A DNA stretch of 64,000 nucleotides from Thermus arciformis (GTDB lineage Bacteria; Deinococcota; Deinococci; Deinococcales; Thermaceae), in contig NZ_FNBC01000006.1 in assembly GCF_900102145.1 (NCBI RefSeq), forward strand, positions 1 through 64,000, written 5' to 3'. The translations under genes were made by a program, and so were the position numbers. Below, piece by piece: positions 2,551 through 64,000 of the stretch (within the stretch, counting starts at the first letter, position 1; each line of letters opens with the position of its first letter). The notes beneath the pieces were generated by a model. It worked only from the letters and a program-made list of their open reading frames with translations, had not been told where the DNA came from and searched no databases.

Positions 2551-4104
<1,554 letters not shown>

Positions 4105-4130
4105 CGCCATCTATCCCATAAAGAGCGGGA

Positions 4131-4159
4131 CTACACCGATAGCCCCCGGCACGGTGTAG
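4131..4159. terminator. Inverted repeat after rsmA (terminator or operator)
   Basis: CTACACCG at 4131-4138 is repeated inverted as CGGTGTAG at 4152-4159 around a 13-nt loop. A second, shorter repeat (TACAC/GTGTA) straddles the rsmA stop at about 4090-4103. No T-run follows, so it may be a weak terminator or a protein-binding site ahead of the nqo promoter. Confidence 0.4.
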
Positions 4160-4189
4160 CCTTACCCTCTTGTCCCGGGCCTGGGGTAG

Positions 4190-4195
4190 TAAGAT
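4190..4195 (+). promoter_or_regulatory. Possible -10 element of the nqo operon
   Basis: TAAGAT lies in the only non-coding stretch before the complex I genes; the same hexamer appears as a -10 candidate at 49772-49777. TTGTCC at 4170-4175 could be a -35 but the 14-nt spacing is short. It would give a leader of about 70 nt. Downstream, GCGGGGCT (4210-4217) pairs with AGCCCCGC (4232-4239), and CGTG (4241-4244) with CACG (4253-4256), just before the ribosome binding site AGGAGGGG. Confidence 0.35.
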
Positions 4196-4270
4196 GGGCA
4201 GGAACTCGGGCGGGGCTTTTGGGGTGTTGGGAGCCCCGCTCGTGAAGAGAGGCACGAAAGGAGGGGAACC

Positions 4271-4630
4271 TTGGCGCCCATCGCGGAGTACGTGAACGTC
4301 CTAATCTACCTGGGGGTGGCCCTCTTCATCGGGGTGGCGGCCCTTTTGGTGGGGGCCCTCCTCGGCCCCAAGAAGCCGGGGCGGGCCAAGCTCATGCCCT
4401 ACGAGTCGGGGAACGACCCCGCCGGGGAGGTGAAGCGCTTTCCCGTCCACTTCTACGTGGTGGCCATGCTCTTCATCCTCTTTGACGTGGAGGTGGCCTT
4501 CCTCTGGCCCTACGCCGTGAGCGCAGGGGGGCTTGGCCTCTACGGGTTCCTCGGGGTCTTGGGCTTCACCCTGCTCCTCTTCGTGGGCTTCCTCTACGAG
4601 TGGTGGAAGGGGGTGATGCGGTGGCACTGA
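4271..4630 (+). CDS. nuoA: NADH-quinone oxidoreductase subunit A (Nqo7)
   Basis: This is the first gene of the complex I operon: 119 residues and three membrane helices, part of the membrane arm near the quinone site. The loop containing [11 protein letters not shown] and the acidic helix segment [11 protein letters not shown] are family signatures. The start is a TTG at 4271 preceded by a strong Shine-Dalgarno AGGAGGGG at 4259-4266; no ATG or GTG fits. It overlaps nuoB by 10 nt. Confidence 0.96.
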
Positions 4631-58702: not shown

Positions 58703-58933
58703 GTGAAGGCCTTCACCGTGCACCAGGCCAAGACCCACCTCTCCCGCCTCCTGAAGGCCGTGGAGGAGGGGGAGGAGGTGGTGATCCTGAGGGGCAAAAC
58801 CCCTGTGGCCAGGCTCGTCCCCTACCGCAAGGGGAAGCGCCCCCTGGGGTTTGTCCCGGGGAGGCTACCCGAGAGCTTCTTTGAACCCCTTCCCGAGGAG
58901 GAGCTCGCCCTGTGGGAAGGCGCTACCTCCTAG
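58703..58933 (+). CDS. Antitoxin, Phd/YefM family
   Basis: This 76-residue protein has the Phd/YefM DNA-binding N-terminus (VHQAKTHLSRLLKAVEEGEE and VILRGKTPVARLVPY) and a C-terminal acidic tail that would neutralise the toxin. The GTG start follows the GCTAAGCT repeats by 6 nt. It overlaps the PIN toxin gene by 22 nt. Confidence 0.9.
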   Translation: MKAFTVHQAKTHLSRLLKAVEEGEEVVILRGKTPVARLVPYRKGKRPLGFVPGRLPESFFEPLPEEELALWEGATS

Positions 58934-59304
58934 ACACCCACGTCCTCATCTGGGCCCTCACGGAACCCGAGCGGCTGAGCCCCAGGGTCCGGTCCCTTTT
59001 GGAGGACCCCGACACCCCCCTTCTCGTCTCCTCGGCCAGCGCCTGGGAGATGGCCACCAAGCACCGCCTCGGGAAGCTTTCCGGCGCCGAGGCGGTCTTG
59101 GAGGGCCTGGAAGGCCACCTCTCCCGCCTGGGGGCCGAGGAACTTCCCATAAGGCTTACCCACGCCCTCCTGGCGGGAAGGCTTCCCGGGGAGCACCGGG
59201 ACCCCTTTGACCGCATCCTGGCCGCCCAGAGCCTGGTGGAAGGCCTCGTCCTCCTCACCACCGACCGCGCCTTCCACACCTTCGGCGTGGAGACCCTGTG
59301 GTGA
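58912..59304 (+). CDS. vapC: PIN-domain toxin, VapC family
   Basis: This 130-residue ribonuclease toxin has the PIN acidic residues in YLLDTHVLIWAL (Asp8), SSASAWEMATKHRLGKL (the conserved Glu), and HRDPFDRILAAQ and TTDRAF. It pairs with the Phd-type antitoxin upstream, a common hybrid type. The GTG at 58912 is chosen for the overlap. The stop overlaps queG. Confidence 0.9.
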   Translation: MGRRYLLDTHVLIWALTEPERLSPRVRSLLEDPDTPLLVSSASAWEMATKHRLGKLSGAEAVLEGLEGHLSRLGAEELPIRLTHALLAGRLPGEHRDPFDRILAAQSLVEGLVLLTTDRAFHTFGVETLW

Positions 59305-61118: not shown

Positions 61119-62450
61119 GTGCGGGCCTTGGTCTTGGGCCTCCTCCTCGCCCTCACCCTCCCCCCCTTTCCCCTGGGCTTCCTCGCCCCCTTCGTCCTCG
61201 CCTTCCTCCTCAAGGGGGGCTTCCGGGAGGGGTTCTGGGCGGGCCTCGGGTTCTGGGGGCTCCACCTGGTCTGGCTTCCCCAAAGCTTCGCCCAGAACTT
61301 CGGGCCCTGGGGGGCGGTGCCCTTTTTGCCCCTCGTCCTCGTCAAGGCCCTCTCCTTCGGCCTCCTCTTCGCCCTCACCCCCAACGCCCCCATGCGCCTC
61401 GGGGGGTGGGTTCTCCTGGAGTGGCTCACGGAGCAAGGAGAACTCGCCTTCCCCTGGGGGTTTCTGGGCTATGCCCTGGTGGAGGCCCCGGGGAGGGTGC
61501 TGGCCGCCTGGGGCGGGGTCTACTTCCTCTCCCTCCTGGTCCTCCTCGTGGCCTATGGCCTTCGGGCGAGGCGGCCATGGGTCCTCCTCCTTTGGGCCCT
61601 CCTCTGGCTCCTTCCCCTCCCCGAGGCGCACCCCGAGGGCAAGGCCCTTTTGGTCCAGGGGAACATCAACCCCTTAAGGAAGTTCCAGGGGGAGCTGGAC
61701 GAGGCGGTCTACCTAAGGCTCACCGAGGCGGGGCTTCGGGCCCACCCCGAGGCGGACCTCGTGGTCTGGCCCGAGACCGCGGTCTGGCGGATCCCCCAGG
61801 AGACGGAGGCCCTCCTCCAAGGCCGCCCCCTCCTCACCGGCCTCAACCTCCTCGGCCCCAACCGGGCGGTGCTCTACCGGGAAGGCAGGGTCCTCGGCCA
61901 CTACGACAAGACCCGCCTCGTCCCCTTCGGGGAGCGCTTTCCCTTCCGGGAGGCCCTGGGAGGGGTCTACGCCTTCTTCTTCCGGGCCATGGGGCTTGGG
62001 GACCTCCAAGACCGCACCCCTGGCGAGAAGGTGGCCCCCATCGGGCCCTACGGCGTCCTCATCTGCTACGAGTCCGTCTTTCCCTCCGTGGCCCGGGGCC
62101 TGGCGCGGGAAGGGGCCAGGGTCCTCGTCCTCCTCACCAACGACGCCTGGTTCGGCCCCTCCTTCGGGGGCAGACAGCACTTCGCCCTGGGACGCCTAAG
62201 GGCGGTGGAGACGGGGCGGTGGCTCCTCAGGGCCGGGAACGACGGGATCACCGCAAGCGTTGACCCCTTCGGCCGGGTGGTGGCGGAAATCCCGCCCCAC
62301 CAAGAGGGCTTCCTCCTCGCCCCTTACGCCTTAAGGACGGGCCTCACCCCTTACGCCCGCTTCGGGGACTGGGCGGTGGGCCTGGCGTTGACCATCTTCC
62401 TCCTTGGCCTTATCCTTAGGGTGCGTCCGCCGGGGTGGCGGAACCGGTAG
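61119..62450 (+). CDS. lnt: Apolipoprotein N-acyltransferase
   Basis: This 443-residue membrane enzyme adds the third acyl chain to lipoproteins. It has about six N-terminal helices and a nitrilase-like periplasmic domain with the catalytic Glu219 (WPETAVW), Lys264 (HYDKTRLVPFGE) and Cys316 (LICYES). The GTG at 61119 removes an unlikely proline-rich extension. The last codons and TAG fall inside tRNA-Leu, overlapping it by 22 nt. Confidence 0.94.
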   Translation: MRALVLGLLLALTLPPFPLGFLAPFVLAFLLKGGFREGFWAGLGFWGLHLVWLPQSFAQNFGPWGAVPFLPLVLVKALSFGLLFALTPNAPMRLGGWVLLEWLTEQGELAFPWGFLGYALVEAPGRVLAAWGGVYFLSLLVLLVAYGLRARRPWVLLLWALLWLLPLPEAHPEGKALLVQGNINPLRKFQGELDEAVYLRLTEAGLRAHPEADLVVWPETAVWRIPQETEALLQGRPLLTGLNLLGPNRAVLYREGRVLGHYDKTRLVPFGERFPFREALGGVYAFFFRAMGLGDLQDRTPGEKVAPIGPYGVLICYESVFPSVARGLAREGARVLVLLTNDAWFGPSFGGRQHFALGRLRAVETGRWLLRAGNDGITASVDPFGRVVAEIPPHQEGFLLAPYALRTGLTPYARFGDWAVGLALTIFLLGLILRVRPPGWRNR

Positions 62451-62515
62451 ACGCGGCAGACTCAAAATCTGCTGTCCGCAAGGACGTGCGGGTTCGAGTC
62501 CCGCCCCCGGCACCA
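62429..62515 (+). tRNA. tRNA-Leu (anticodon CAA)
   Basis: This class II tRNA has acceptor GCCGGGG/CCCCGGC, anticodon stem GCAGA/TCTGC with loop CTCAAAA (anticodon CAA, reading TTG), a long variable arm TGTCCGCAAGGACGT, T-loop GTTCGAGTC and an encoded CCA. Its first 22 nt are shared with the end of lnt. Confidence 0.95.
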
Positions 62516-62579: not shown

Positions 62580-63329
62580 CTATCCCTTGTCCCAAAGGGC
62601 GAGGACGTAGCCTTCCGCCACAAAGAAGCGGGGCGGGCTTCCCAAAGCCTCCCGGAAGAGGCCTTCCAGGGCCTCCAAGGAGAACCTCCGCCCCAGGAGC
62701 GGCCCCACCTCCTCCTCCCGGTAAGGCCACTCCAAGACGGCCACGCGCCGGGCCACCCGGGAGGCCTCCCGGAGGGCGGGAACGGGGTCCAGGTGGTGGA
62801 GGGCGAGGCCGAAGAAGGCGAGGTCAAAGCTCCCGTCGGGGAAGGGCAGGGCCTCGGCCCGCCCCTCCACGAACCGGGCCCCCTTCACCTTGGCCCGGGC
62901 CACCTCCAGGCGGTCCGCCCTGGGGTCCAGGCCCACGACGAAGAGGCCCAAGGCGGCGAAGGCCTCGGCGAAGACCCCGGTGCCGGTGCCGATGTCCAAG
63001 ACGCTTTTCGCCTTCAGGCCCTCCAGGGCCTTCCTAGCGATCTCCCCCGGAGGAAAGCGCTTAAGCCTTTCCTCCTTGCGGAAGGGGTCCCCTGCCTCGC
63101 AGGCGTTGGTAAGGAGGGCCCACATCACCAACGCCCCCTCCTCCGCCGCCTTCTGGAAGGCCCTTTGCAGGGTGAGGAAGACCTCCTCCTCCTCCCCGGA
63201 AACCTCCGAGTGGGTGGGGAAGACGCGGTAGCTCGCCCCGCTTTCCTCCAGGGCCAGGAGGGCTTTCTCCACCGCCCTGTAGTCCCCCTGGAGGAGAGGG
63301 TAAAGGGCGAAAAGGGCCTTCACCGCCAT
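62580..63329 (-). CDS. Thiamine-binding-like (YkoF/MTH1187) domain fused to a SAM-dependent methyltransferase
   Basis: This is a 249-residue two-domain protein. Residues 1-85 resemble the YkoF/MTH1187 ferredoxin-like fold that binds thiamine or a pyrimidine (ALYPLLQGDYRAVEKALLAL, then ASYRVFPTHSEVSG and VFLTLQRAFQKA). Residues 100-249 are a class I methyltransferase with LDIGTGTGVFAEAFAAL at about 111-127 and LDPRADRLEVARAKV. The GRAEALPFPDGSFDLAFFGL stretch is UbiE-like. I have not seen this fusion described. It overlaps the upstream methyltransferase gene by 10 nt. Confidence 0.75.
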   Translation of the reverse strand: MAVKALFALYPLLQGDYRAVEKALLALEESGASYRVFPTHSEVSGEEEEVFLTLQRAFQKAAEEGALVMWALLTNACEAGDPFRKEERLKRFPPGEIARKALEGLKAKSVLDIGTGTGVFAEAFAALGLFVVGLDPRADRLEVARAKVKGARFVEGRAEALPFPDGSFDLAFFGLALHHLDPVPALREASRVARRVAVLEWPYREEEVGPLLGRRFSLEALEGLFREALGSPPRFFVAEGYVLALWDKG

Positions 63330-63962: not shown

Positions 63963-64000
63963 CTAGTCTAGCCGCACCACCACGCCCTCGTCCGGGCGCA
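63963..64000 (-). CDS. C-terminal end of a cut-off gene
   Basis: On the minus strand an open frame enters from the window edge and ends RPDEGVVVRLD with a TAG at 63963-63965. The short spacing to the next gene suggests a real gene end, but the family cannot be identified from 11 residues. Confidence 0.45.
   Translation of the reverse strand, partial: RPDEGVVVRLD
63965..63970 (-). promoter_or_regulatory. -10 element TAGACT of the methyltransferase pair
   Basis: TAGACT on the minus strand ends 6 nt before the GTG at 63958 and shares a base with the stop of the preceding gene; leaderless. Confidence 0.5.

Follow-up and report, generated by a model that had tools for sequence, protein, structure and literature searches.

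A YkoF-type repeat joined to a class I methyltransferase in the genus Thermus

Analysis of a 64,000-nucleotide stretch of Thermus arciformis DNA, referred to here as the window, revealed a gene whose product joins one YkoF-type repeat to a class I SAM methyltransferase domain. We regard it as virtually certain that this joined protein is real and that its architecture is conserved in Thermus. The first-pass annotation of the window had described a YkoF-like N-terminal domain fused to a methyltransferase, and this description is borne out by an open reading frame of 249 aa, by matches to both PF07615 and PF08241, and by the presence of the gene in 22 of 27 Thermus genomes. Both domain families are known, but their combination is new and, as far as we have seen, belongs to one genus only. 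No description of a YkoF-methyltransferase fusion was found in the literature searched.

Gene order and distribution in Thermus

The features of the locus are collected in Table 1. No linker separates the YkoF repeat from the methyltransferase domain. Immediately upstream lies a second methyltransferase gene, MT2, which had already been noticed as an overlapping neighbor and which, according to the ORF coordinates, shares 10 bases with the start of the fusion gene. MT2 occupies this upstream position in all 22 genomes that carry the full fusion, and the order GH13, MT2, fusion recurs in 28 of 28 loci compared (the partial loci L006 and L070 included), these synteny loci having been drawn from overlapping genome sets and thus not amounting to 28 independent species. 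In the genome from which the window derives, a TtuA-like tRNA thiolation gene (PF22082, PF01171) is situated upstream of the GH13 gene. Elsewhere in the window, at 58703-59304, two short overlapping ORFs resemble a Phd/PIN-type antitoxin-toxin pair, as judged by eye from the sequence.

Table 1. Positions of the fusion gene, its domains, and its neighbors in the window
Feature	Position	Strand	Basis and remarks
Fusion gene, YkoF-type repeat plus class I SAM methyltransferase	62580..63329	-	ORF, 249 aa; Pfam
YkoF/MTH1187-type repeat, residues 1-83	63081..63329	-	PF07615, PF01910, PDB profile, hhalign
Methyltransferase domain, residues 84-249	62583..63080	-	PF08241; alignment with 10 free-standing relatives; model pLDDT
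MT2, second methyltransferase gene, 212 aa	63320..63958	-	ORF; Pfam; PDB match 2gs9 (TT1324)
GH13 (alpha-amylase family) gene, last 38 bases	63963..64000	-	Remainder lies past the window, L071:13963-15549
tRNA gene	62429..62512	+	Rfam RF00005, 59.6 bits; converges on the fusion gene, between it and lnt

A six-frame search of 50 Thermaceae genomes returned matches at E <= 1e-25 in 23, every one of them Thermus, and none of the 23 genomes from other Thermaceae genera matched at this threshold. The full fusion is present in 22 of the 27 Thermus species genomes, and the arrangement is thus not confined to one strain; its closest named relative, from T. parvatiensis, is 98% identical to the protein encoded in the window. 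G053, a genome resembling T. composti (L006), retains residues 106-249 only, and four other Thermus genomes (G047, G052, G061, and G064, the last just 65% complete) gave no match at E <= 1e-25. The fusion was not seen in the sampled genomes of other phyla, and none of 38 matching plasmid records covers 80% of the fusion query.

The losses within Thermus can be followed in several cases. In G061 (L103, 1501-1700), only about the first 56 residues of MT2 remain between the GH13 gene and the tRNA/lnt region, which indicates that a deletion took most of MT2 and the whole of the fusion gene and left GH13 in place. In the T. composti-like locus L006 (near 3894-4423) and in L070, recombination between MT2 and the fusion gene has left a single short, frameshifted remnant that no longer contains the YkoF part. 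In five of the 27 Thermus genomes, including the 65% complete G064, the fusion gene is absent or broken; it is thus not essential, and we conclude that it is dispensable.

The conserved order and tight spacing of GH13, MT2, and fusion, together with the joint absence or breakage of both methyltransferases in the near-complete genomes G047, G052, and G061, might suggest that the fusion and MT2 form a methyltransferase pair acting on a sugar or glycan product tied to the operon's GH13 enzyme. Joint loss is what linkage predicts in any case, however, and in G061 GH13 survived the deletion that took the entire fusion gene and the greater part of MT2. Moreover, no glycosidase occurs among the scanned neighbors of the free-standing relatives described below. 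We therefore consider a role in sugar or glycan methylation improbable.

The two domains and their nearest known relatives

On the full protein, the PF07615 (Ykof) model scores 20.9 bits over residues 4-66, slightly below its cut-off of 21, and on the isolated N-domain it scores 24.3 bits, above that cut-off, which is exceeded in 20 of 27 Thermus genomes. The N-domain of the window reaches 19.8 bits against PF01910 (Thiamine_BP), for which the cut-off is 24.9; matches to this model occur in eight of 27 Thermus genomes, five of the eight lying above the cut-off. In an alignment of 21 Thermus N-domains, which omits L058 (N-domain the same as that of L057), L070 (no N-domain), and L018 (the window itself), every row matches PF07615 at E <= 0.01 and 19 of the 21 also match PF01910 at that threshold; two rows reach the BMC model as well (best E 0.0093).

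When the profile built from these 21 rows was searched against all PDB sequences, YkoF was recovered as the top match (1s99, E 8.8e-11, with both repeats aligned; 1s7h, E 3.8e-10), followed by SP2199 (2ibo, 4.2e-4) and 1yqh (1.3e-3), with the remaining matches at E >= 0.039. Alignment of the Thermus N-domains by hhalign with four canonical YkoF repeats from two other Deinococcota genomes yielded a probability of 97.6%. On the strength of these sequence comparisons we classify the N-domain as YkoF-like.

Structure prediction is less telling for this domain. Modeled alone from a six-row alignment, it is all-helix with a mean pLDDT of 62.6; in the full-length model its elements are predicted as E4-10 H17-30 E33-35 H47-63 E67-73 at a pLDDT of about 45-65. 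The 50 Foldseek matches listed for the full-length model include methyltransferase-type structures (best 3dh0) and none for the N-domain.

The nearest known relative of the N-domain is YkoF of Bacillus subtilis (1s99, 1sbr, 1s7h; PF07615), each repeat of which is homologous to it by sequence profile. The two have in common a core of LYP, S/T41, and G45, and column comparison places the retained YkoF core positions of the Thermus domains at L9, Y10, P11, S/T41, G45, and L54. The Thermus protein nevertheless differs from YkoF in having one repeat per chain rather than two in tandem, with the methyltransferase attached from residue 84 onward, and in lacking both a YkoE-type transporter and the histidine that is invariant in YkoF. 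This histidine, at position 67, is present in four of four Deinococcota YkoF repeats and, in the profile alignments, in both B. subtilis repeats, but each of the 21 Thermus domains has L, V, or T instead. Many polar or aromatic residues are invariant across the 21 Thermus rows (R35, T39, H40, E42, W70, T74, N75, and C77), and R35, T39, E42, W70, and N75 are invariants of the Thermus repeat's own.

A second point of comparison is the MTH1187/TM0486/SP2199 family (PF01910), whose members likewise have a single repeat and whose model, as noted, matches 19 of the 21 Thermus domains; the MTH1187-type structures SP2199 and 1yqh are the ones recovered by the Thermus profile. Proteins of this family are free-standing, unlike the Thermus repeat, and the N-domain of the window falls below the family cut-off. 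TM0486 is reportedly linked to oxidative conditions.

Both halves of the fusion are under purifying selection of similar strength, with median pairwise dN/dS values of 0.245 for the N-domain (codons 1-80) and 0.219 for the methyltransferase (codons 86-230) across 171 pairs from 19 sequences, a set that leaves out L058, L063, L069, and L070. We rejected the possibility that the N-terminal part is a spurious extension, since residues 1-85 show no gaps in the alignment of 21 Thermus sequences and evolve under purifying selection. As a separate observation, the fusion at L069 (G048) spans 261 columns for 248 query residues, corresponding to an insertion of roughly 12-13 residues.

Residues 111-195 of the C-terminal half match PF08241 (Methyltransf_11) with 73.7 bits against a cut-off of 21.2. 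The half contains SAM motif I as LDIGTGTG at residues 111-118, conforming to D-x-G-x-G-x-G, as well as a family motif, LEWPYREE, at residues 199-206, and most of the domain is modeled at pLDDT > 90 in the full-length prediction. These features place it among the class I SAM methyltransferases. The earlier description of the domain as UbiE-like holds at the level of this superfamily and fails for UbiE/MenG itself, since TIGR01934 scores 45.5 bits against a curated cut-off of 158.35. MT2 is nearly identical to TT1324 (PDB 2gs9, E 7e-130) and, like the fusion, is a class I methyltransferase of the same operon. It is a distinct enzyme, however, without a YkoF repeat, and its identity with the fusion amounts to 39% across about 98 residues.

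Free-standing relatives and the origin of the fusion

The relatives of the methyltransferase half outside Thermus are free-standing enzymes that are 38-47% identical to it and share its motifs, the L-E-W-P stretch being present in 16 of 16 rows of an alignment of the fusion with free-standing relatives. These 'LEWPYREE' methyltransferases (PF08241) are found in Acidobacteriota, Chloroflexota, Calditrichota, and others, and no named family was found for them beyond PF08241. Their distribution is patchy: searches with the full-fusion profile detected non-Thermus matches in three of 111 genomes of the Deinococcota, the phylum of the window, and in three of 400 genomes from the phylum of L012 (a Thermoflexales record), five of 396 Acidobacteriota (the phylum of L007), one of 388 Pseudomonadota (that of L009), and one of 40 Calditrichota (that of L011). 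Four of the 13 matches are genomes that had already supplied the loci L012, L007, L009, and L011. All 13 begin at positions 79-84 of the fusion profile, and thus the fusion point corresponds to the native start of the enzyme.

We also considered whether a separate YkoF gene adjoins the free-standing enzymes. When YkoF profiles were compared with ORFs of at least 60 aa, no YkoF gene was detected around 19 free-standing loci, a set from which the general methyltransferase at L017 was left out; the only match over 20 loci was L095, which is the canonical YkoF locus itself, and an adjoining partner was accordingly rejected. The free-standing enzymes therefore differ from the fusion in having neither a YkoF repeat nor a YkoF gene next to them. 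Among ten genomes with a free-standing enzyme, PF01910 at E <= 0.001 is without a match in seven, with two clear matches and one weak match in the others. Taken together, the 19 loci and these seven genomes indicate that the enzyme generally needs no YkoF partner. Because the fusion was seen only in Thermus and its relatives in the other phyla sampled are free-standing, we conclude that a methyltransferase that already existed, with a patchy distribution, gained its YkoF repeat in Thermus.

Possible roles of the YkoF-type repeat

The first-pass annotation had suggested that the N-domain senses or presents a thiamine-related pyrimidine for methylation. By this account, thiamine, HMP, or a related pyrimidine would bind to the YkoF repeat and would then either be methylated by the methyltransferase or act as its switch. 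The homology to YkoF is real, and YkoF binds the HMP part of thiamin (PMC5627462). Furthermore, at L095, in a genome of the same order as the window, a canonical two-repeat YkoF adjoins a TENA_THI-4 protein, an ABC permease, and an NMT1/THI5 protein, a neighborhood that fits HMP-type salvage, as expected. Methylation of such a pyrimidine also has a parallel, in that a methyltransferase is listed in a cluster for bacimethrin, a thiamin antivitamin (PMC12345177).

The Thermus data do not support this proposal. The GH13-MT2-fusion operon contains no thiamine gene, and the company that YkoF keeps, whether a YkoE-type or thiamine/HMP transporter or TenA, does not occur there. None of the 27 Thermus genomes has YkoE (PF09819), a search of the window for a TPP riboswitch gave nothing at the gathering score, the YkoF-invariant histidine has been lost from all 21 Thermus domains, and the same enzyme family is present in genomes that lack a PF01910 match. 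We accordingly judge the binding of such a pyrimidine, coupled to its methylation or to a switch, to be decidedly improbable, and a vitamin-gated methyltransferase, in which the repeat would sense a thiamine-related pyrimidine on the enzyme itself or hold it as substrate, to be highly improbable. If the latter were true, methylation would follow or modify the vitamin B1 pool.

Alternatively, the repeat might be a purely structural element, added in a thermophile for dimerization or stability and binding no ligand. The loss of the histidine, the presence of just one repeat, and the capacity of free-standing enzymes to work without it are all compatible with such a role. On the other hand, the polar and aromatic residues that are invariant in 21 rows seem more than a bare scaffold would need, and the N-domain and the enzyme half have similar dN/dS values. 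For these reasons we view a structural element as a rather unlikely alternative.

Our best guess, which we put forward tentatively, is that the repeat binds a ligand and serves a methyltransferase of small molecules as a dimerizing or allosteric module. The architecture from which this guess starts we consider virtually certain: a single, presumably ferredoxin-like repeat of the YkoF type was joined, in a Thermus ancestor or in the early history of the genus, to the first residues of an existing 'LEWPYREE' methyltransferase, within an operon holding a GH13 glucosidase and a second methyltransferase. The C-terminal domain would bind SAM and methylate a small soluble molecule, and the YkoF repeat would act as a dimerizing, small-ligand-binding module. 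The two repeats of YkoF form one continuous sheet through edge-strand contact (PMC3779223), and by analogy the repeats of two Thermus chains might pair to give the two-repeat unit that YkoF holds in one chain. A ligand bound at the paired repeats could then tune or position the catalytic domain, much as ACT-type domains do on other enzymes.

For this dimerizing or allosteric module, the ligand has probably drifted from thiamine or HMP. As to the substrate, a thiol or sulfur metabolite is a weak favorite, because thiol or sulfur genes flank four of the 19 free-standing loci. Genes for thioredoxin or glutaredoxin, rhodanese, and AhpC-TSA or OsmC occur near L012, L016, and L098, and in a genome of the same order as the window a Sulf_transp and DUF6691 pair (L094:5120-7204) lies upstream of the free-standing methyltransferase on the same strand. 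The neighbors scanned at the remaining 15 loci include no thiol or sulfur genes and nothing consistent.

The scope of these findings is narrow, comprising one genus and a dispensable gene. The YkoF/MTH1187 superfamily to which the repeat belongs is widespread, however, and is poorly understood outside HMP transport. A natural enzyme fusion offers a handle on the role of the YkoF domain, because any effect of a ligand on methyl transfer could be measured.
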